Shown here: in pieces, positions 34,215 through 49,570 of the stretch
Layout of the letters: each line of letters starts with the position of its first letter
How positions within the stretch are numbered: position 1 is the first letter of the stretch
From: a virus
IMG/VR virus record: IMGVR_UViG_3300024302_000017
Span: 1 to 49,829 of that record
Length of the DNA stretch: 49,829 nt
Direction: 5' to 3' (one strand)
Program-made: the position numbers and the translations under genes
Notes under the pieces: model-generated
Database searches by the model: none
Told to the model about the DNA's origin: nothing
What the model saw: only the letters and a program-made list of their open reading frames with translations

Positions 34215-34763
34215 TTAAGCTACACGCTGGGTCTTTAACTGCTCCCAACTAGGAGTATCAGTCCTACCTTGTGCAGTCTTCCATGTGTTTTGGTTGAGCA
34301 ACTGCAGACGGGCTGCAGCCTCCTGATTTTGGAAGTTCTTATCCCACTGTTCCTGCTGCTGAGCCATTTGATCTTTAACTAGTCCAAGTCCCTTAATAGC
34401 AGCCCAAGCTGAAGCTAGGTTACCTACTCCTCCTAGGATTGATCCTGCCCCTTTCATCTTATCCCCAGTGAGTGATCCCCAGAAACCACCAGTATCACCT
34501 CCAGCCAGTTGCCGCTGCATACCGAAGGTATTACCCAATCCTATAGGCTGGTTCGCATTCAAAGCGAATGGGCCTGTACCTATAGAAGGTGGAGCTACTT
34601 CTATATTAGATAATCCTATAGGCTGGTTCGCATTCAAAGCGAATGGGCCTGTACCTATAGAAGGCGGGGCCACTTCTATATTAGATAATCCTCCCCAAAA
34701 GTTTTGCTTATCATCATCCAAAAAACGGGTGTATCCACCCCCTAATGTATTTGTTTCAGACAT
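34215..34763 (-). CDS. virion protein with a duplicated 25-residue segment
   Basis: This encodes 182 residues. The N-terminal region contains a perfect tandem repeat of 25 residues (GLSNIEVAPPSIGTGPFALN and five more), followed by a partial third start (GLGNTFG). Glycine-rich helices (GAGSILGGVGNLASAWAAIKG) and a charged C-terminal helix follow. It has the composition of a small structural or internal protein. Its place between the 796- and 505-residue genes supports a virion role. AGGAG lies 8 nt before the ATG. Confidence 0.6.
   Translation of the reverse strand: MSETNTLGGGYTRFLDDDKQNFWGGLSNIEVAPPSIGTGPFALNANQPIGLSNIEVAPPSIGTGPFALNANQPIGLGNTFGMQRQLAGGDTGGFWGSLTGDKMKGAGSILGGVGNLASAWAAIKGLGLVKDQMAQQQEQWDKNFQNQEAAARLQLLNQNTWKTAQGRTDTPSWEQLKTQRVA
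34537..34686 (-). repeat. 75-bp tandem duplication
   Basis: Copies at 34537-34611 and 34612-34686 differ only at a few synonymous positions near their right ends (GGTGGAGCT versus GGCGGGGCC). The repeat is in frame (25 codons) inside the 182-residue virion gene. The small divergence indicates a recent duplication. Confidence 0.9.
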
Positions 34764-34855: not shown

Positions 34856-37246
34856 CTAGGCATACGTAGGCGGGTTCAGGAACTGTTCTCTAATAGCATC
34901 TAGCTCATATATAGATAGAGCAGGGTTTAAATCCCCGTGCATAGCATAGTAAGCATCAGGTAATAGGGGATTAATAGCAGCTTCCCACTTGTTATCTAAC
35001 AGGCTGAGAGCGGCTCCTGATGCATCCTTGAAAAGGGATTCTTGTATATCCTTCAGAACATTGGTGGCATCCTTTACCTCCTGTAATGCTTTATTGTAGG
35101 TCTTCGTAATATCAGACAACTCACCTTCCGTATGGATATTAATCACATTAGAGATAGCATCTGTAATTGAGCTGAGGTACTCAGCAATATCCCAAAACTC
35201 ACCACTTGTAGTATCCAACCCCATCTCAGGGGCATACTTAGTGATAAGTACCACAGCCAGTACAGCTGCCAACTCTGGACTGATTTCCTTAGCTACATAG
35301 CTGATAACCTCACTTATGAGCATCCGTATGACCATCTTCTGGATGAATGCCTGCTGTCCTGCAGCAGTAGACAGTGTAGCTGGATTGAACGTCATCACCC
35401 CATATATGATCAATGCCACTTGCACTACAGCCAGCAGTTTCTGAAAGAAGCTCATCTCAATGACTTCATAATGGGCGGTATAGATAGACAAGTGAGCACT
35501 AGCTAGAAGTAGCTGAGTTGTCTGTGTTTTAGGCAGATCCTTCATTAACTCATAAATGAGGGGGATAGTCAGGTCGTTTTTATTTGCAAGATTGAACTTA
35601 ACGAGCTTAAATTTATCTGTCTGCGCATCCACCACCCGTAGCATAGCTATGGGGGCATGTATGGTATAGGCTGCTAACCCACTATGAGTTATCTGGTAAA
35701 ACGTAAAGGCTTGTCCTGACGTGGTTGCTTCGTTCAACTTATTAACTAGGGTAAGTTCCCCTGCTATATTCTCATAAGCAAGATCAGGTTTGAGTGTCAT
35801 CTCCCCATACAGCATACGTGAAGTAACCTGTAGGTAATCTACTGCTTCGTCAGCGGTTGCTCCAGGTGAGGGTCTGCCATTACCTGCTAAGAATAAGTCC
35901 ACCTCTTCTTCATCATTGGCTATGAAGCCTATGTTATAGGAGGGCTTCCCATCAGAAGAGTAGTAAGGATTAAGGAGAGAGCCATCTACAAACCTGCTCA
36001 TGTCTGAGTAGTACACGTCGTTCTCAGGTGAGTTGATATACTTATCTATATCTGCACGAGAGGTGAAAACATAGGTTATGTACGCGTACTTGAATATATA
36101 GGCGTAGTCATCACTAGTGACCTTCAATGAGTTGTAGGGTTTCTCTGCATTTTCACTACCTCGGTACAATCCTTCAGTAACCGCAGCATTAACATACATA
36201 TTCTGAAATAGCCTAAAGCAGTAATTCATACTAATCTGGGTAGTATCCCAGATCTTCACCCCAAAATTAATAAAGGCATGATCTAATTTATCTTCATTGC
36301 CTACCACATTGGGATCTTCCATCACTGCTTTAATCATGTCTGCAGCATCTAGTCCGAGTAGGGCTGTGAGTTCAGATATCTGGGTGGCTTTCTCAGACTC
36401 CACAGTATTAAAGTTTGCATTATCAATGCGTAATGGGATGGCAGGAAGAACTCTAAGAGAGTCTGTCATATCTCCTATGTTACGCCCATAAGGAATAGAG
36501 GGATCATCTAACTCAGGATGGGTTTCAGAACCAACTGCATATATAAATAGGATCGTATCAGTGGGTGCGCTATCTAAGTAGTAGTACACAATATAATGAG
36601 AACCCACCGGTCTACCAGGAACTTCATAATCTAATACACTGGTAAGCTCCCCCTGTGTTACAGGAATCTCAAAGGTGTCTGTATCTGACTGGTAGTTAAA
36701 TACTGTAGGAGCCACATACCACGTACCAGCATCATGAGTGATGCTGTGATCATCAATGTTGTAGTCTTTATTGGTAGCTAGCCAGTACTGTATCCAGTAA
36801 TTAGCAAAGAGGGTACCTACTCTTGAGTAACTCAGACTGCATGGTTCCCCTTCTAATTCATTAAGTACCTCAAGAACTTCATGCTCATCTACATATGTAA
36901 TATCCCCCTCCACTGTAGGGAACCTCTGGAAGTACTTATCTTGCTCAATGTATTGCACAAATCTACGTAAATTAGCCTTAGCATCATAAACTGAGTGGAA
37001 CAGTAAACTGGCAGGTAGATCCTCATTCCCTAGAATGGAGTTATAGATAATTTGCTGTAGGGGGTTGTCTTGGGAGTCTTCAAATATAGAACGATTGTAT
37101 ACTTCAAACTGCTCTATGATCTGATCTTCATAACCTAAAAGACTAGCTGCTGCCTCAAGGACTACTTCAACAACATCTATAACGAGGTCTACGAAGGACT
37201 CTACAATGTTTACAACAACACTGATTATGTTGTCTATAAAACCCAT
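34856..37246 (-). CDS. structural protein with hydrophobic ends, 796 residues
   Basis: The first 40 residues are strongly hydrophobic and amphipathic (MGFIDNIISVVVNIVESFVD onward), and residues 595-670 contain further hydrophobic helices (VVQVALIIYGVMTF, ELAAVLAVVLITKYA). The middle 500 residues look like a soluble, tyrosine-rich folded domain. In its position between the repeat protein and the internal proteins it corresponds to N4 gp52/gp53-region virion proteins. A membrane-interacting, ejected protein is a reasonable inference. Family not recognised. Confidence 0.6.
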   Translation of the reverse strand: MGFIDNIISVVVNIVESFVDLVIDVVEVVLEAAASLLGYEDQIIEQFEVYNRSIFEDSQDNPLQQIIYNSILGNEDLPASLLFHSVYDAKANLRRFVQYIEQDKYFQRFPTVEGDITYVDEHEVLEVLNELEGEPCSLSYSRVGTLFANYWIQYWLATNKDYNIDDHSITHDAGTWYVAPTVFNYQSDTDTFEIPVTQGELTSVLDYEVPGRPVGSHYIVYYYLDSAPTDTILFIYAVGSETHPELDDPSIPYGRNIGDMTDSLRVLPAIPLRIDNANFNTVESEKATQISELTALLGLDAADMIKAVMEDPNVVGNEDKLDHAFINFGVKIWDTTQISMNYCFRLFQNMYVNAAVTEGLYRGSENAEKPYNSLKVTSDDYAYIFKYAYITYVFTSRADIDKYINSPENDVYYSDMSRFVDGSLLNPYYSSDGKPSYNIGFIANDEEEVDLFLAGNGRPSPGATADEAVDYLQVTSRMLYGEMTLKPDLAYENIAGELTLVNKLNEATTSGQAFTFYQITHSGLAAYTIHAPIAMLRVVDAQTDKFKLVKFNLANKNDLTIPLIYELMKDLPKTQTTQLLLASAHLSIYTAHYEVIEMSFFQKLLAVVQVALIIYGVMTFNPATLSTAAGQQAFIQKMVIRMLISEVISYVAKEISPELAAVLAVVLITKYAPEMGLDTTSGEFWDIAEYLSSITDAISNVINIHTEGELSDITKTYNKALQEVKDATNVLKDIQESLFKDASGAALSLLDNKWEAAINPLLPDAYYAMHGDLNPALSIYELDAIREQFLNPPTYA

Positions 37247-37263: not shown

Positions 37264-39063
37264 TTAGGAAGGTTTAGTCTCTGTAATCTTAGTATTCATT
37301 CCACTGGCAGTAAGGGCAGTTACGCCAGTATCTGCAATACCCGCAGTACTTACGTTGATACTCCATGCATCCAGCAGAGTCTTCAGGTATTTCTGATCAG
37401 CATTCCATCTAAATCCCTTAGCCTGTTGTGTGTAGAGTTCTGCTTGCCTGCCCATAATACTATCAGGGCTAGCTGCCGATTTACTGGTCTGGTGTGTCTG
37501 TGCGTACTCAGTGACAGCTTTCTGGATAAGTACATCCCGTTCGGCCTGTCCCTTAGCAGCTTGAATATGATAGATGGATTCTGTGAGCTTCTTCTCAAGA
37601 ATCTGTGAGGAATACGTAACATCCTCTAGAACACCATCAATCACTATCGGAGACTGGCGTAGTACGTCCTCCATCTCAGATTGTGTGTAATCACTATAGG
37701 TAGTGTGCGAGTACACCGTAACATCATCGATGTATTTAACATTCCACAGGTAACTAATAATCTGTTCCCCGTTCTTGAGTTGCTCACCCAATGTCTGATG
37801 TTCTTTTAACTGTATATTAGAAGCCACATCTGCATTACGAGATGCGGTCTGACCTGCAATATCAAGGGCTTTCTTTAACTCGGTATCGGCTTGGTTATCC
37901 ACCATCGCAGTCTGAGATACCTTAAGAGTAGTGTCATTACTGGACTGTGCATTTCGTACAGTAGTCTGGGACTGTACGTCAATGTTTTGTGAACCGAGTA
38001 AGGTAACCTTAGCTGCAGAATCACTATCCAGCCTAACTGTACTGGCCACTACCTCTGCCTCTTGATCATTCATCAAAGCAATCTTGGCTGTAGATTCCAG
38101 ATCTTGCCTTAGAGTGTTAGCTACAACTTCCAATTCTTGATCAGCCATAAGAGAGATCTTGGCAAGTGAATCTGCATCCAATCTAACTGTACTTGCAAGT
38201 ACTTCATCCGATTGGCTACCAGCAAGGGTAGTTTGTGCAGCCTTAAGCTCAGTATCATTAATTGACTGGGTATCCCTAGTCGAGGTCTGACTAACAACAT
38301 CTAATTCTTGGTCAGCCATTAAACTTACCTTAGCAGTAGATTCTATGTCTTGGCGTGTAGTACTGGCTACTACCTCCAGCTCTTGCTTCGCCATTAAACT
38401 GATCTTGGTTGTAGATTCCTCATCTTGGCGCGCAGTACTAGCTACTACCTCGATCTCTTGATCCGCCATGAGTGATATCTTAGCCACTGAGTCAGCGTCT
38501 TGCCTTGCAGTAGCCGCTAGTACCTCAGCACTTTGGTTAACTTTTAGATCAGTTGCAGCAACTGTATCACTAACTTGTACTGTGGCAATAGCATCCTGCC
38601 TTACAGTACTAGCCACTACCTCAGCTTCCTGGTCAACCATTAAACTAATCTTAGCTGCAGAGTCATTGTTCTGACGTGTCGTGCTAGCTACAACTTCCAA
38701 TTCTTGATCAGCCATAAGAGAGACCTTGGCAGTAGATTCTATGTCTTGGCGTGTAGTACTTGCAATGACCTCAGCACTTTGGTTAATTGTTAGAGTATTC
38801 TTAGTCCCCTCTGTGATGACCTGAGCATCTGTGAGTGCCTTACGTAGAGCAAACTCTGTAGCTGTCTGTAGAGAGCTCTGTACGGCCCCTAGATAGACAT
38901 TAGCATAGTCAGCACCAGTGAGACGGCCCAGTTTAAACTGAGCGGTTAGGTGGGTGTTGATAGCCTCCATTAGGTCATCAAACACACCATTCCCAGTAAC
39001 AGTGTAATTACCATCAGTGGTAGTTGCTATGTCACTCGTCAAATCACTGGTACTGATTGCCAT
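37264..39063 (-). CDS. repeat-rich fibrous virion protein, 599 residues
   Basis: After a 90-residue N-terminal domain, residues about 110-420 consist of eleven repeats on the pattern EVVASTTRQD-ESTAKISLMADQEL. Units are 25 residues long except every fourth, which is 32 (one heptad more), giving a higher-order period of 107 residues. The register suggests a trimeric or other coiled-coil rod. The C-terminal 170 residues are a separate helical region (TESIYHIQAAKGQAERDV). It is coupled to the upstream 176-residue gene by a TAATG overlap. A role as a tail, neck or internal rod is inferred from composition and position. Confidence 0.65.
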   Translation of the reverse strand: MAISTSDLTSDIATTTDGNYTVTGNGVFDDLMEAINTHLTAQFKLGRLTGADYANVYLGAVQSSLQTATEFALRKALTDAQVITEGTKNTLTINQSAEVIASTTRQDIESTAKVSLMADQELEVVASTTRQNNDSAAKISLMVDQEAEVVASTVRQDAIATVQVSDTVAATDLKVNQSAEVLAATARQDADSVAKISLMADQEIEVVASTARQDEESTTKISLMAKQELEVVASTTRQDIESTAKVSLMADQELDVVSQTSTRDTQSINDTELKAAQTTLAGSQSDEVLASTVRLDADSLAKISLMADQELEVVANTLRQDLESTAKIALMNDQEAEVVASTVRLDSDSAAKVTLLGSQNIDVQSQTTVRNAQSSNDTTLKVSQTAMVDNQADTELKKALDIAGQTASRNADVASNIQLKEHQTLGEQLKNGEQIISYLWNVKYIDDVTVYSHTTYSDYTQSEMEDVLRQSPIVIDGVLEDVTYSSQILEKKLTESIYHIQAAKGQAERDVLIQKAVTEYAQTHQTSKSAASPDSIMGRQAELYTQQAKGFRWNADQKYLKTLLDAWSINVSTAGIADTGVTALTASGMNTKITETKPS

Positions 39064-42590: not shown

Positions 42591-44618
42591 TTATCGGTTT
42601 AAGTTAGGTTCATTAATAATAGCATCTGCAAATTTCTTATCAAGTTCATTGTTCTGATCTACGCCTTTCATATTCTCCTCATGCTGACGATTAACACCAG
42701 ACTCTTGCTCTACAAAGTTAAGATCTTCCATATCAGACTTACTCTCTAGGTTACGAGTCTTAGCTTCTTTCAGTGCGATATCTGCAGTATTCTCTTGAGC
42801 CTTAGCTTGTTCATTAGCTACCTGAGCCTGTAATAGTGCAACCTCTAGTTGAGCTTTCTGTTGTGCCATAGGATCTGGTTGAGGTTGATACTCCTCAATA
42901 CGCTTAGCTAGTTCAGGCATCTTACGGAGTCTAGCTATGTCAGATAGAATCATCTGAGACATAGAGGGTTCCATATTATTACCCATAGTCTGTAGCATGA
43001 AGGAGAGCTCTTGAGCTTTCTCATTATCAGCTTCAGCAGTAGAGATGTTTAGTTTAATATCATAACGACCACCAAGGTCTTCACGATTGATCGCTACAAA
43101 CTCTTCGTTAGTAATACGAATGATCTCTTCATCTTCTAGGAACTCAGCATTCATTGAGATGAATTTACGACCAATCTGGAGTATACCCTCAGCTAGTCTA
43201 CGTAGGATACCTAGCTCCCTCTTAGAGGTAGCATCTAGAGCTGATCTAATACCAGTAGCTGTATTACCTAAGGCTTGTCCTGAGATGCCCTGACTGAATG
43301 CCTTTACACCTGTAAGACTCTCTGCCTCATCATTCTGCAGATTCAGCATAGTGAGAGCACTAGTTGGAATCTCTGGGTAAGTCTCCATATGGAATGCTTG
43401 TCTAGGATCAATAGTGGAATTGAACTTGTAGTCATCCCCTCTCTCAAACTTACGTGCATTAATTACGTCTAGAGCATCCTTACGGATACCCTGTTGACCG
43501 TTGGCACTACGACCTAGGATATCAATCATCCCTCTAGTGACTGCTCCTATGACCTTCTGGTTGTCCTCTAGGAGGTATCCATCAGGTTGTCCAAAGACTT
43601 CCTTACGTACAGGGAGATAATCTACCTTAACAAAGGGTAGTTGTTTATCAGGGAATGGAGCCTCCTCTAGACGAACTAAAGTATCCCCAATCCAGGTAGC
43701 TACAAAAGGTTCTACCTCTCCAGTTCCATTGATATCCCAGAAGCCCCAGTATTCATGAGCTACGAGCTTCTTACGAGCCTCATCACTGAACTCGAAGCTA
43801 GCATCCCTCTCTCCTACAGAGTGGTCAGGAGCTGCTAGAGCACTCTGGTTCTCAGTCTTAACGAAATCTAGATTCTCATATCTACCGTCCTTTTTCAGCT
43901 GAGACATAGAGGTTTCAAAACTATAAATAATGAACTCTGCTTTGTCTAAATCCCCCTCACAGGTAGGATCAATAATGAGGTTCTTATAGTTACAAATCTC
44001 AACTGTAGGTTGGTTCTTAAGTACCTTTGTCTGCTCTTGAGTTTCAGTACCTACTTGAACTTCCTCATAGGGAGGAAGACCTTGTGCTTGACGTTGAGCA
44101 GCAATCTCAGGATTAAGTATAGGACGTGCTTCCATGACTGGAACTTCTACTTCTACTATCTCTTCCTCATACTCCCAACCAGTACGTACAATAACGGTAC
44201 CTTCATCTACTGCAGTACGTACAAACTCATCAATGAACTTGACCTTCTGAATACGATTATTGAATTGAGAGTTTAGAACTAAACCATTCTGAATAGCTGC
44301 CTGCTTATCCTCAAAGGTGACAGGGGAGGTATTGAATAGATCATTAGTAGATAGGAAAGGTTCACTCAGAGCTGCATACCTCCACTCTGCTTGCTTACGG
44401 ATAACCTTAGGTACGATCTTAGATCGTCCCTTCTTAGCCTTAATCTGCTGATCCCCACGTAGAGCACTAAGCCACCCATCTACCGTAGTAACGTGAGCTA
44501 TGTGAGAGCTCTGGGCTGCGGTGTAGTCTTTCTTGAGATCTGATAGTTTAGGAGGGTTCTCCCAGTTAACTAGCTTATCTGCTTCAGGTGCTGCTACGTC
44601 AGTTTTATCGTCATTCAT
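42591..44618 (-). CDS. portal protein (N4 gp59-type)
   Basis: This encodes 675 residues. Diagnostic features are ATGIRSALDATSKRELGILRR in the central helical region, the KVIRKQAEWRYAALSEPF N-terminal block and a long coiled-coil C-terminus (AQLEVALLQAQVANEQAKAQ), as in N4-type portal proteins. The portal forms the dodecameric DNA channel at one capsid vertex and binds the terminase. Length, and position upstream of scaffold and capsid genes, fit. It follows the 99-residue gene by 12 nt in the late transcript. Confidence 0.82.
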   Translation of the reverse strand: MNDDKTDVAAPEADKLVNWENPPKLSDLKKDYTAAQSSHIAHVTTVDGWLSALRGDQQIKAKKGRSKIVPKVIRKQAEWRYAALSEPFLSTNDLFNTSPVTFEDKQAAIQNGLVLNSQFNNRIQKVKFIDEFVRTAVDEGTVIVRTGWEYEEEIVEVEVPVMEARPILNPEIAAQRQAQGLPPYEEVQVGTETQEQTKVLKNQPTVEICNYKNLIIDPTCEGDLDKAEFIIYSFETSMSQLKKDGRYENLDFVKTENQSALAAPDHSVGERDASFEFSDEARKKLVAHEYWGFWDINGTGEVEPFVATWIGDTLVRLEEAPFPDKQLPFVKVDYLPVRKEVFGQPDGYLLEDNQKVIGAVTRGMIDILGRSANGQQGIRKDALDVINARKFERGDDYKFNSTIDPRQAFHMETYPEIPTSALTMLNLQNDEAESLTGVKAFSQGISGQALGNTATGIRSALDATSKRELGILRRLAEGILQIGRKFISMNAEFLEDEEIIRITNEEFVAINREDLGGRYDIKLNISTAEADNEKAQELSFMLQTMGNNMEPSMSQMILSDIARLRKMPELAKRIEEYQPQPDPMAQQKAQLEVALLQAQVANEQAKAQENTADIALKEAKTRNLESKSDMEDLNFVEQESGVNRQHEENMKGVDQNNELDKKFADAIINEPNLNR

Positions 44619-44630
44619 AAATTACGCTCA

Positions 44631-44930
44631 CTAAGCATACAGGTGGGTATCTATTTTAAAGATAGACTGTTTATCATATTCACTATGGTAATGGATACGA
44701 TCTTTAAATATCTCATTACTTTCCAAAAACAGGGAACAGTATACTGCGTCATCTTTAACTATGGTCTTAATAAAATAGTGCAGCACATTAGCTAGCTGCA
44801 TCCTTGCTTCTATATTATCTGCCGTTACGAGGCTTGTAATCATGTATCCATTTAGTGGCTTTGAGAAATAGTAGTACAAATACGCGAAATCTAGGTAGAT
44901 ACAGGTACAGTGCTTAAACTTTACAGCCAT
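44631..44930 (-). CDS. hypothetical protein of the acyl-synthase unit, 99 residues
   Basis: It starts on a TAATG overlap with the stop of the ketoacyl synthase gene, with GGAG 8-9 nt before the ATG, so it is translated with it. It is aromatic-rich (CIYLDFAYLYYYFSKPLNGY), alpha/beta in appearance, with no membrane helix or signal peptide. No motif of dehydratases, reductases, thioesterases or phosphopantetheinyl transferases is seen. Its tight coupling suggests that it works with the synthase and carrier protein; otherwise unknown. Confidence 0.65.
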   Translation of the reverse strand: MAVKFKHCTCIYLDFAYLYYYFSKPLNGYMITSLVTADNIEARMQLANVLHYFIKTIVKDDAVYCSLFLESNEIFKDRIHYHSEYDKQSIFKIDTHLYA

Positions 44931-45916
44931 TATAGGATCTCCAATATAGCGGCAGAAAATACGTTACCCATTCCTGCACCTAAACTAAGGAACATACCGG
45001 GCCCATTGTCCCGTATAGCCAGGTCGGTCTCGATTGCAGTACTAGCTCCCAACGTATGCCCTATATCCTGTTTGTAGCTAATGGTCTCGATGTTCCCAAA
45101 GAGCTTCTTCACTACAGAAAGTTCTACGCAATTATCAAGAGAGTGAGTATTATGGAGCTTAACAAATCGTATATCCTGAGGTACAACACCAGCTTGAGCT
45201 AAGGCATCCTGTATAGCATTCGAGTACCCAGTACCCTGTTCAGAGATACCTAGAGGATTGCCTATAGCCTCAGCAGTAGTTGTGACTGCGTGTAGCACAG
45301 CCCTTCCTGCTCCTAAGGCTGTAACAGCATCTTCAATAACAGTGATGTTCACTCCTTGCCCTAGAAAGAACTTACGTTCCTCATCTAGGGTAATTAACTT
45401 GTTTTCTGCAAAGAACTTCATAAACTCTTCAGAGGTGCCATTATCTACGGCCACTATAACGACCCTAGTTAACTTGCCTGACTCAATCAGTAATTTTGCA
45501 TACTCTAGCGCAGAGTGTCCGCTTATACAAGAAGTACCATCTACAGAGATGTGCTTAAAGGTGCCTAGGCTGTTTGCCAACTTACCTGCGTATATCTGGT
45601 TAGTACCCAAGGGTAGTACTTTACAGGTAGGGTAGTTTGTTGAATACTTACCTGTAAACTTATACCCAGTCCACATGGTATTTCCTGCGGCTAAGATGAG
45701 CCCGTTATTACCCTCTTCAAGCAAGGCGCTACGTAGGGTCTCACGAAAGCTATCAGCATCTAGAAGCTGGTCTACCAGCACTTTAGGGATAGTAGTTACA
45801 CCGGCCTTTAGTGCCACACCTCCATCAGTAATTTGATGAATATGCTGTGGTGTACTAACAGCCTGTTCAACTAAGCTTGAAGTGTACAGGGATTTAGAAA
45901 AAGTGACATATATCAT
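44930..45916 (-). CDS. beta-ketoacyl-ACP synthase (FabF/KAS-like, thiolase fold)
   Basis: This encodes 328 residues. KAS enzymes condense an acyl chain on an active-site cysteine with malonyl-ACP. The catalytic set is intact: C130 in VDGTSCISGHSALEYAKLL (nucleophilic elbow), H255 in VKLHNTHSLDN (FabF HGT position, with G changed to N), K282 and H287 in SYKQDIGHTLGAS, and the closing glycine loop SLGAGMGNVFSA. The K-to-H spacing of 5 equals FabF. It is about 85 residues shorter than FabF, mostly in the N-terminal half. It is translated by ATGA overlap with the acyl carrier protein gene and TAATG overlap with the next gene. It lies inside the virion operon. Confidence 0.88.
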   Translation of the reverse strand: MIYVTFSKSLYTSSLVEQAVSTPQHIHQITDGGVALKAGVTTIPKVLVDQLLDADSFRETLRSALLEEGNNGLILAAGNTMWTGYKFTGKYSTNYPTCKVLPLGTNQIYAGKLANSLGTFKHISVDGTSCISGHSALEYAKLLIESGKLTRVVIVAVDNGTSEEFMKFFAENKLITLDEERKFFLGQGVNITVIEDAVTALGAGRAVLHAVTTTAEAIGNPLGISEQGTGYSNAIQDALAQAGVVPQDIRFVKLHNTHSLDNCVELSVVKKLFGNIETISYKQDIGHTLGASTAIETDLAIRDNGPGMFLSLGAGMGNVFSAAILEIL

Positions 45917-46239
45917 TTTGATATTTGTACTAACGTCTGCTCTATCTGGGCATATGTATAGCCCTTAGTTTGATACTTTTTCACAAAGGTAAACAAATCA
46001 TCCACTGTGAGATCACCTTTTAGGGCCCTTGTTGGAACGGTTTCCGTCGTTATCCCAAACAGTTCATGCAGCCACACCACTAACATCATAACTCCTAGAC
46101 TATCTAGTCTATCTAGGATAAGGCTGTCATGCATACTCTCTACACGGTTAAAAGCATCAGGTTCACTACTTTCTCGTATGCTGATTACGTTTATGATGTG
46201 GATGAACTCTTCATCCGTTAGAGAGCAAGTGTCCATCAT
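45913..46239 (-). CDS. acyl carrier protein-like protein
   Basis: This encodes 108 residues. The ACP signature is clear: LDRLDSLGVMMLVVWLHELF (residues 42-61), where D46-S47-L48 is the phosphopantetheine attachment site at the start of helix II, followed by FGITTETVPT and the LTVDDLFTFV helix IV. Typical ACPs have about 80 residues; this one has about 15 extra at the N-terminus and a 20-residue C-terminal tail. A host holo-ACP synthase would be needed to activate it. It overlaps the upstream fibre-like gene and the downstream synthase gene by ATGA. The pairing with an intact ketoacyl synthase strongly supports the call. Confidence 0.88.
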   Translation of the reverse strand: MMDTCSLTDEEFIHIINVISIRESSEPDAFNRVESMHDSLILDRLDSLGVMMLVVWLHELFGITTETVPTRALKGDLTVDDLFTFVKKYQTKGYTYAQIEQTLVQISK

Positions 46240-47744
46240 ACAAGGGGATTGTTAGATGCCGTGGTTGTGAGGGTGGATATATCACCGCTCCCATCCGTGA
46301 CAATATCAGCTACTTTCAATGAAGGTGGGTATGTATAACTCAGTGTCCCTGAGCTAGTTATGGTATCTGTGGTAGCCTCATACGGCAAAGTAACCTCATA
46401 GGTATCCTCATCAAGAATTGCTTTAATGGCGTACTTCGTATTTACCGCTGCATTTCCAGGTGAGGCAGGAGGTGTGTAGCCACTGAGGGTTACATACCCC
46501 CCTACGAATGCTCCATGAGCTGTATGCGTAATGGTCAGTACGTTGGAGCCATCTGATGTACTAAAATAGGTTGCAGCATTGTACGAACTAACGGAGTTGT
46601 ACGCCTCCAACTCAGCACTCTGAGTAGAAATCAAGAAACTGCTTTCATGCTTGGTTATATAGTTATTTTCAGTAGCTGTGTCATTTGTGATGTAGATCGC
46701 CATACCACTAGTAATGGTCGGGAGAGAATTAAGAAAAAGAGGGGTACCATACACCCAAGAGTGCCATTCATTATCTACGGCATCCCATGCCCATAACGCA
46801 CTAATATCTCCTGCAGATAGCCCTAGTTTAGCTACTAAATCATCTACAAATGCTGATACACCGTTGTCTATATTAACGTAAGGAGTGGCGGGAGTAATGG
46901 CTAATTGGGAGAACCCCTCATACACTGTAGAGAAAGTCGTCGTGGTTATGCCATCAATAGTCATAGTAAAACTATCAACTGTGGCCGTCACCTTTAGCCA
47001 CACATTCCAACCAGGTGTAATGAACCGATCAGAATCTAAAGCTTCCTTGGTATATCCTGGATTATTTTCGGAGGCATCTAGGTTTTCAAAGGACGCATTA
47101 GGAGTCAAATACATCTGATCTACGCTAGTTACCTCCGAGTAGTTCTCACCCAACCACCGGACAAAATTTCCGTATGTAGGAGGGTAATCACCAAAGTCTG
47201 GGTAACCTCCAAAATTAAAGTATGCCCAACCATTTCTCAAGTTAATGGGAATACTGTAGGTCATGGCTGTCTGCGTCAAAGGGACACTATGGATGTATAA
47301 GCTCTCTGATGCCCGATTAGCAGGCACAGTATTGTCGGGGGAACCTATAGTATCCCAGTCAGTACTTGTGTTTAGGTTAAGCAATGCAGATGATGTAGCG
47401 TATTTTGTCACATTCACTTGCTCATTAACAATACGTGTAAGCACCTCCTCTGGTGTCTTAACCACAGTAGTGCCGATTGACTTAAAGGACTCACTTACAA
47501 TAACTTGATTTGCAATCGTAGTGTTAATGAGAGGGGACATCAAATGTAACTTATCTTTAGTTACATCAGCCATAGGTTCTGGTTTGTTCCCTCCTGAGAT
47601 TTGAGTATCCCAGTCTAGGTTAATGGAGTCATTGAGATGCTCAAAGGTAATCTTCTTACTTGTACCCGCATCACTTATCAGCAGCTCATCAGTATCGTCA
47701 GCAGATGTTTTTGCGGTTAGCTGCGATATTTTCTTATCAGCCAT
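46236..47744 (-). CDS. tail fibre/appendage-like virion protein
   Basis: This encodes 502 residues from ATG 47744, fixed by a TAATG overlap. The N-terminus MADKKISQLTAKTSADDTDE with the following LLISDAGTSKKIT is the common anchoring segment of phage fibre and spike proteins. The remainder is beta-rich, serine/threonine/asparagine-rich and low in cysteine, with repeat-like strands (SNVLTITHTAHGAFVGGYVT) near the C-terminus. It is probably part of the tail appendages that touch the host. Its stop overlaps the start of the acyl carrier protein gene. No enzyme motif is seen. Confidence 0.65.
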   Translation of the reverse strand: MADKKISQLTAKTSADDTDELLISDAGTSKKITFEHLNDSINLDWDTQISGGNKPEPMADVTKDKLHLMSPLINTTIANQVIVSESFKSIGTTVVKTPEEVLTRIVNEQVNVTKYATSSALLNLNTSTDWDTIGSPDNTVPANRASESLYIHSVPLTQTAMTYSIPINLRNGWAYFNFGGYPDFGDYPPTYGNFVRWLGENYSEVTSVDQMYLTPNASFENLDASENNPGYTKEALDSDRFITPGWNVWLKVTATVDSFTMTIDGITTTTFSTVYEGFSQLAITPATPYVNIDNGVSAFVDDLVAKLGLSAGDISALWAWDAVDNEWHSWVYGTPLFLNSLPTITSGMAIYITNDTATENNYITKHESSFLISTQSAELEAYNSVSSYNAATYFSTSDGSNVLTITHTAHGAFVGGYVTLSGYTPPASPGNAAVNTKYAIKAILDEDTYEVTLPYEATTDTITSSGTLSYTYPPSLKVADIVTDGSGDISTLTTTASNNPLV

Positions 47745-48064
47745 TAGTTTGTCCTCACTTGTGCAATTATGGGTAGTTGCCACTCTGCATTAATACCAGA
47801 TGAGCTTACTACGGTTACGGTAGCGGTGTACGTACCGCCCGTGGTTAATGCTAGGGTGTCCTCAAGTACGGCTGAATAGTTACCATTGCTATCAGGAACG
47901 TATACCAATGATAGGGGAAACGTCTGCCCAGTAACGGTAGCGTCTTCACTATCTTTAAGAACACAGGTAACTGTCGCATCATTCATGAAACTACCGGAAC
48001 TGGGGTCGTTAAGACCGACCATACTTATAGTGTTATCATTATTAATAAAGAGATTAGAAGCCAT
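47744..48064 (-). CDS. beta-sandwich virion protein, 106 residues
   Basis: The pattern ATVTCVLKDSEDATVTGQTF ... GNYSAVLEDT ... GGTYTATVTVVSSSGINAEW is that of small immunoglobulin/BppU-like beta domains found in phage baseplate and fibre proteins. It probably joins a fibre or tail part. Its stop overlaps the fibre gene start (TAATG), and it follows the 55-residue gene closely. Confidence 0.6.
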   Translation of the reverse strand: MASNLFINNDNTISMVGLNDPSSGSFMNDATVTCVLKDSEDATVTGQTFPLSLVYVPDSNGNYSAVLEDTLALTTGGTYTATVTVVSSSGINAEWQLPIIAQVRTN

Positions 48065-49238: not shown

Positions 49239-49436
49239 TCATCTCACCTTCCACATATCTAAAGTAGCGTCACTCCATCCCTCACCGATCTCCACAACAG
49301 CCGTCATCTCTTTCGGTCCGTGGGCGCACCCGCTCATTAGTACCACGATGAAAGTAATCCACGCAACCACGAGAAGTAACTCTAACAATCGGACCAAGAG
49401 GGTGGTGATCACATCGTGTAGCTTGTCGTCCTTCAT
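49239..49436 (-). CDS. small lipoprotein, 65 residues
   Basis: A short charged N-terminus is followed by a hydrophobic helix (LLVRLLELLLVVAWITFIVV) and lipobox LMSGC with lipidated C37, then a 28-residue polar tail (HGPKEMTAVVEIGEGWSDAT). Size and layout are like Rz1-type or entry-exclusion lipoproteins of phages. It overlaps, in another frame, the zinc-finger-like gene at 49282-49485. Either or both may be translated. Confidence 0.5.
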   Translation of the reverse strand: MKDDKLHDVITTLLVRLLELLLVVAWITFIVVLMSGCAHGPKEMTAVVEIGEGWSDATLDMWKVR

Positions 49437-49485
49437 AATCGTATAGAATCATCAATCCGCAAATAGTACACTTAAAATCACTCAT
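49282..49485 (-). CDS. small zinc-finger-like protein, 67 residues
   Basis: The start at 49485 is set by an ATGAGTGA overlap with the upstream small membrane gene. Residues 1-28, MSDFKCTICGLMILYDYEGR then QATRCDHH, give C6-x2-C9 and C25/H27/H28, a plausible zinc site. The last third is arginine-rich and lies wholly within the overlap with the lipoprotein gene. Function unknown. Confidence 0.5.
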   Translation of the reverse strand: MSDFKCTICGLMILYDYEGRQATRCDHHPLGPIVRVTSRGCVDYFHRGTNERVRPRTERDDGCCGDR

Positions 49486-49570
49486 CACATTTTTCTGCGC
49501 CATACCATGTGCAATATATAATCACTACAAGGGCAATCGCGGCAGGTATTATGATTAAATAACCCATCAT
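49478..49570 (-). CDS. 30-residue membrane peptide
   Basis: It encodes MMGYLIIIPAAIALVVIIYC followed by TWYGAEKCDE, one membrane helix with an acidic tail. It overlaps the previous small gene by ATGATG/TGA and the next by ATGAGTGA. Many phages carry such single-helix peptides near lysis genes. Function unknown. Confidence 0.5.
   Translation of the reverse strand: MMGYLIIIPAAIALVVIIYCTWYGAEKCDE

Follow-up and report, generated by a model that had tools for sequence, protein, structure and literature searches.

A cassette of three genes, encoding an acyl carrier protein (ACP), a FabF-type ketosynthase (KS) and a small transferase-like protein (T), was found next to the portal gene of an N4-like virus. 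Because the same set recurs in well over 100 other phages, it is probable that many phages, late in infection, either make an acyl group or attach one. Our favoured reading, to which we assign a probability of about 0.42, is a late acyl-transfer module in which ACP would carry an acyl group (a 3-oxoacyl group where KS is present) and T would transfer it to a late-expressed, probably virion, protein. Phage ACPs were already known, but had been reported singly and labelled auxiliary metabolic genes; here, ACP, a virus-specific KS clade and T make up a single cassette that recurs, is under selection and is fixed to virion genes. In the open-access literature, we found no paper describing a linked phage ACP-KS-T cassette or its KS-optional pattern.

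The window, by which we mean the whole stretch of 49,829 bases analysed, is the record of a single virus, which we placed as N4-like (Schitoviridae-type) because its portal is 56% identical to that of Salmonella phage FSL SP-076 and because PHROG matches and gene order agree. The portal and the major head protein both matched PHROG head-and-packaging families. The cassette lies on the minus strand in the order ACP (108 aa, 45913..46239; phrog_28189, 4e-18), KS (328 aa, 44930..45916; phrog_35856, 1e-79) and T (99 aa, 44631..44930; phrog_28689), with the N4-like portal gene directly downstream on the same strand (42591..44618; SU10_portal 1.6e-146, phrog_1216). Upstream, the start of ACP is overlapped by a fibre-like gene on the minus strand (46236..47783), whose function is weakly supported by an End_beta_barrel match below the cut-off (E 0.008), and a PHROG search with this gene returned no match. 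All three junctions described in the earlier note were present, namely ATGA between the fibre-like gene and ACP, ATGA between ACP and KS, and TAATG between KS and T. The overlap with the fibre-like gene holds in the window, but most relatives in the window clade do not share it, their upstream gene being on the opposite strand; linkage to T and to the portal is kept. Likewise, the downstream gene that had been called unknown does overlap KS, but it belongs to the cassette and yields a GNAT-like model. A scan for promoters and terminators found sites no more numerous than in shuffled sequences.

The window ACP is, by its sequence, a divergent acyl carrier protein, with a phosphopantetheine group predicted on S47. 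Translation confirmed that S47 lies in the second of two DSL motifs (residues 46-48). Alone, the protein fell below the cut-off for Pfam PP-binding (E 0.06), and a tblastn search with it against phage records returned nothing; a profile built from the ACPs of six phage loci, one from each, matched acyl- and peptidyl-type carrier proteins in the PDB, the best at 3.5e-5. The DSL phosphopantetheine motif and the ACP profile match are shared with bacterial AcpP, whereas the phage ACP is divergent, scores under the Pfam cut-off and is coupled to T whether or not KS is present.

The window KS is a predicted FabF-type condensing enzyme, on the strength of both profile matches and a structural model. 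It exceeded the cut-off for Pfam Ketoacyl-synt_C (3e-8) and matched FabF-type chains among PDB sequences with E values down to 2e-12. Against TIGR03150 (fabF) it scored 52 bits (4e-14), short of the equivalog cut-off of 493.75 bits, and is therefore a divergent KS and not FabF itself; its matches to other FabF-type NCBIfam models were also below their cut-offs. The AF2 model (pLDDT 83, pTM 0.86) has a thiolase fold, and its closest structure is E. coli FabF (1kas, E 4e-15). In a joint alignment, C130, H255, K282 and H287, whose positions were checked by translation, corresponded to C164, H304, K336 and H341 of E. coli FabF (gene numbering), and the set is of the KAS I/II type, because FabH carries an Asn (N274) at the H287 position. 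At E <= 0.01, PF00109 was matched by 30 of the 38 phage KS members and PF02801 by 26. The phage KS thus resembles FabF/KAS II (TIGR03150, E. coli FabF) in its Cys-His-His-Lys set, thiolase fold and top structural match, but it differs in length (328 aa, and 276-379 in relatives, versus 413), in being encoded in a virion operon and in forming a separate viral clade. The profile searches that the earlier note had proposed as checks agreed with its assignment of both proteins, and the structure prediction agreed with that of KS.

That note had also argued that the pair is intact and probably selected, which the data bear out: both open reading frames and the predicted active-site residues were verified, and KS and ACP are well supported, from sequence comparison, as intact genes under purifying selection. 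It had named free variation of the catalytic residues among relatives as evidence against an active synthase, and no such variation was seen, C130, H255, K282 and H287 being invariant across 38 non-redundant phage KSs (clustered at <75% identity) and also in six loci whose KS is only 21-35% identical to that of the window. Asp46 and Ser47 are invariant in the phage ACP alignment A2, and none of the 134 unique complete phage ACPs lacks Asp-Ser. Median pairwise dN/dS was about 0.09 for KS, 0.10 for ACP and 0.19 for T, as estimated by a simple counting method from pairs that are not independent. These values, together with the invariant residues, ruled out a pseudogene or a chance open reading frame. 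The expectation that loss of function would erode the catalytic residues was borne out in a decaying copy, L092, which has lost ACP and most of KS; at about 1691-1786 it retains a C-terminal KS scrap (TSYKAKIGFTMGSSGLLKKCSLIDNL) preceding an intact T, and the histidine of the GH motif has become Phe in this scrap. L093 has the same arrangement in the same region, and in these two loci the T-alone state is clearly a secondary loss.

A scan of viral contigs identified 559 that encode a KS relative, and the locus census was compiled from the best 80 of these 559 together with third-gene scans, duplicates being removed by sequence. The survey of relatives suggested in the earlier note yielded about 135 distinct non-edge loci with a complete ACP-KS-T set in fixed order, and 24 edge-cut loci with KS and T, 4 of which include a partial ACP. 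Other compositions were rarer, with 14 distinct loci carrying only ACP and T, 2 only ACP and KS, and 3 only T, plus 2 further edge-cut T loci. The cassette occupies three sites. In the window clade it precedes the portal; in L001-L006 and in the Alteromonas phages V19 and R22Y it sits between a gp54-like and a gp53-like gene; and in a second podophage type, unrelated to the first (L007, and L049 onward), it is followed by large ejection-like genes. The gp53-like, gp54-like and ejection-like labels derive from gene order, and the first of them also from phrog_2220. In L075 (913-2704), L078 (7247-9017), L083 and L085, an integral membrane protein with DUF2269 is flanked by ACP and KS, there is no T gene and the portal lies directly downstream; this arrangement is a second cassette composition.

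The earlier picture of an ACP and KS pair is incomplete in that KS is absent from the 14 distinct loci that keep ACP and T. Two of these loci belong to Alteromonas phages available as isolates, V19 and R22Y; further contigs of the window's own clade join ACP directly to T. No KS was found elsewhere in the records with ACP and T, V19 and R22Y included, by a search that does detect KS in KS-bearing records. KS is therefore optional within an ACP-centred late module. On a weakly resolved T tree, the presence of KS changes, by gain or loss, about eight times, and L199 (with KS) and L205 (without) are near neighbours.

This pattern bears on the main rival explanation, auxiliary metabolism, in which ACP and KS would act on the fatty-acid synthesis of the host, diverting or boosting it (for example by draining malonyl-ACP or by changing membrane lipids before lysis), and T would be unrelated. 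KS and ACP are indeed proteins of the kinds that the host uses to make fatty acids, and a DUF2269 membrane protein replaces T beside ACP and KS in some relatives. Although the earlier note knew of no role for such genes in N4-type phages, ACP gp30 of the Alteromonas schitovirus R22Y, of which V19 is a named relative, had already been published as an auxiliary metabolic gene, the role its authors proposed (PMC11705849), and acpP/fabF/fabG have been reported in putative roseobacter prophages (PMC8224337). Against this explanation stand the constant association with T and with virion genes, seen at three sites, the 14 distinct loci that keep ACP without KS, the lack of FabG- and FabD-type genes in 13 records, and the separation of the KS clade from sampled bacterial FabF. 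We consider auxiliary metabolism unlikely, although it is the strongest of the alternatives.

The remaining alternatives turn on T, a candidate acyltransferase with a predicted minimal GNAT-type fold. T belongs to the cassette with ACP and KS, keeping its place after KS or ACP, and its proteins range from about 99 to 175 aa. The AF2 model of the window-type T (pLDDT 79) is GNAT-like, with a strand and helix order that fits GNAT; its alignment included four rows from a T subfamily without detectable homology, and the model covers the window type only. Nearly all Foldseek matches in the PDB were GNATs (probability 0.99), but the best E value was a modest 0.027, with a TM score of about 0.56. The matches included FdhC, PseH and the 96-residue AcrVA5, and GNATs this small therefore exist. 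Two other descriptions of T were rejected. A single homologous family across clades found no support, since T comprises three subfamilies that are non-homologous by hhalign, and Pfam scans of T proteins matched no recognised acyltransferase family. A search of viral contigs with the T of R22Y likewise found no relative.

Among viral structures, T matched small phage GNAT-like proteins, one of them annotated 'Internal virion protein A', and T is kept without ACP and KS in L092, L093, L123 and L239; T could therefore be purely structural. A wider form of this idea makes ACP, KS and T all parts of the virion or chaperones, with T as a small internal virion protein of GNAT fold, and needs no catalysis. 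The position of the cassette in the virion module and the four T-alone loci fit such a role, but invariance of the Cys, His, Lys and His residues and of the ACP serine at 20-35% identity would be unexpected of purely structural proteins, and the histidine has gone in the decaying L092 copy. We judge this explanation improbable. No more weight is given to the possibility that the cassette makes, or attaches, a small molecule bearing an acyl group (a 3-oxoacyl amide or a signal, for instance), with T acylating a small amine or sugar in place of a protein. Small amines and nucleotide sugars are GNAT-fold substrates, FdhC and PseH are among the structural matches, and AHL synthases are GNAT-related enzymes that use 3-oxoacyl-ACP; T, however, is only about 99-175 aa long, matches no family of such enzymes and occurs in linkage with virion genes.

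Acyl transfer to a late protein is thus favoured over auxiliary metabolism, a small acylated product and a non-catalytic virion role. In the mechanism that we propose, the host would phosphopantetheinylate the phage ACP at S47, and host enzymes would charge it with a malonyl or an acyl group. KS, where present, would perform one decarboxylative condensation, giving a 3-oxoacyl group that would stay unreduced because the phage encodes no reductase. T, if its modelled fold is a guide, would then take the acyl group from ACP and pass it to a co-produced protein, with a protein of the virion or of DNA ejection as the likeliest recipient; both the transfer by T and its target are what we infer. Searches of the window and of larger related records for a FabG-type reductase (PF13561), FabD (PF00698) or PPTase (PF01648) gave no match; the mechanism therefore assumes that the host supplies the PPTase and the malonyl loading, and the phage would encode one condensation at most. 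The claim that neither a reductase nor an acyltransferase lies nearby accordingly holds for FabG- and FabD-type genes, but T, the modelled acyltransferase candidate, adjoins KS.

We counted in favour of the acyl-transfer module the invariant KS and ACP residues, the low dN/dS, the fixed gene order, the three virion-module sites, the retention of ACP with T in the absence of KS, the GNAT matches of the T model and the lack of a CoA motif in nearly all T proteins. Counted against it were the Foldseek E value of 0.027, the mixed T alignment, the non-homologous T subfamilies, the match of T to an annotated internal virion protein, the loci that keep T without ACP and KS (L092, L093, L123, L239) and those that keep ACP and KS without T (L075, L078, L083, L085). 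A broader statement would be that a dedicated late module (ACP, an optional dedicated KS and a minimal GNAT-fold T) exists in no fewer than two unrelated types of podophage and acylates a protein of the virion or of ejection, using a 3-oxoacyl group or some other group borne by ACP. Such a modification of virions is not known from phages, and we regard the statement as possible but somewhat doubtful. The cassette suggests that protein acylation, or lipid chemistry late in infection, has been overlooked in phage particles. Its natural variants (ACP+KS+T, ACP+T, T alone, and ACP+KS with a membrane protein) allow the role to be tested comparatively, as do the isolates V19 and R22Y.

Acyl-ACP-dependent enzymes of the HlyC/ApxIC type offer a working analogy for T. 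They have a GNAT fold, lack CoA-binding elements and use acyl-ACP as donor (PMC8339906). The CoA pyrophosphate motif [QR]xxGx[GA] was missing from 156 of the 158 unique T proteins, which fits ACP over CoA as the donor, by analogy with ApxIC/HlyC. The likeness to these RTX toxin-activating acyltransferases is one of analogy and not of membership: no sequence relation was found, T has no toxin substrate, HlyC-type catalytic residues are not established in T, and the HlyC/RtxC family was absent among the Pfam matches of the T proteins scanned.

Two kinds of phage provide close comparisons for the cassette itself. The Alteromonas schitoviruses V19 and R22Y likewise have an ACP and T pair, placed between gp54-like and gp53-like virion genes, but their genomes lack KS and their T is of a different subfamily from that of the window. 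Among annotated phages, KS was found in MW202545.1 (Caudoviricetes sp. ctpbd312), where it is annotated as 3-oxoacyl-ACP synthase; this phage has the same order of ACP, KS and a third gene, its ACP and KS genes overlap, and the set follows a gene annotated 'phage stabilization protein'. It differs from the window in phage type and insertion site, and its third-gene family is not detectably homologous. Other KS matches in the phage collection were weak (about 23-30% identity) and fell in unannotated records.

In a phylogenetic tree, the phage KSs formed one clade (100/100) separate from eight bacterial sequences, a small sample with long branches flagged. Scans of genome contigs with KS alignments gave few matches, of which only L167 was close, the others being distant bacterial KSs. 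Recent acquisition of KS from a bacterial host lineage was rejected on the strength of the separate clade and this lone close match. At 8995-11384 of L167, a contig binned in a Balneolaceae MAG, a phage-type KS, a third gene and an ejection-like gene occur among virion-like genes. L167 is probably a phage contig and a possible host lead.

Elsewhere in the window, a gp53-like virion-module protein is encoded on the minus strand (34856..37246; phrog_2220, 6.7e-54). Homologues from phrog_2220 lie directly downstream of the cassette in other clades, and downstream of T in L002 and V19. The neighbouring gp54-like virion protein (37264-39063; phrog_2050) contains many similar repeats of the ADQELEVVASTTRQD type, and at 34215-34763 a tandem duplication of GLSNIEVAPPSIGTGPFALNANQPI was seen within a 182-aa protein. 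Near the end of the record (49239-49503), two overlapping small open reading frames, one with a lipobox-like LMSGCAH, resemble a spanin pair by eye.
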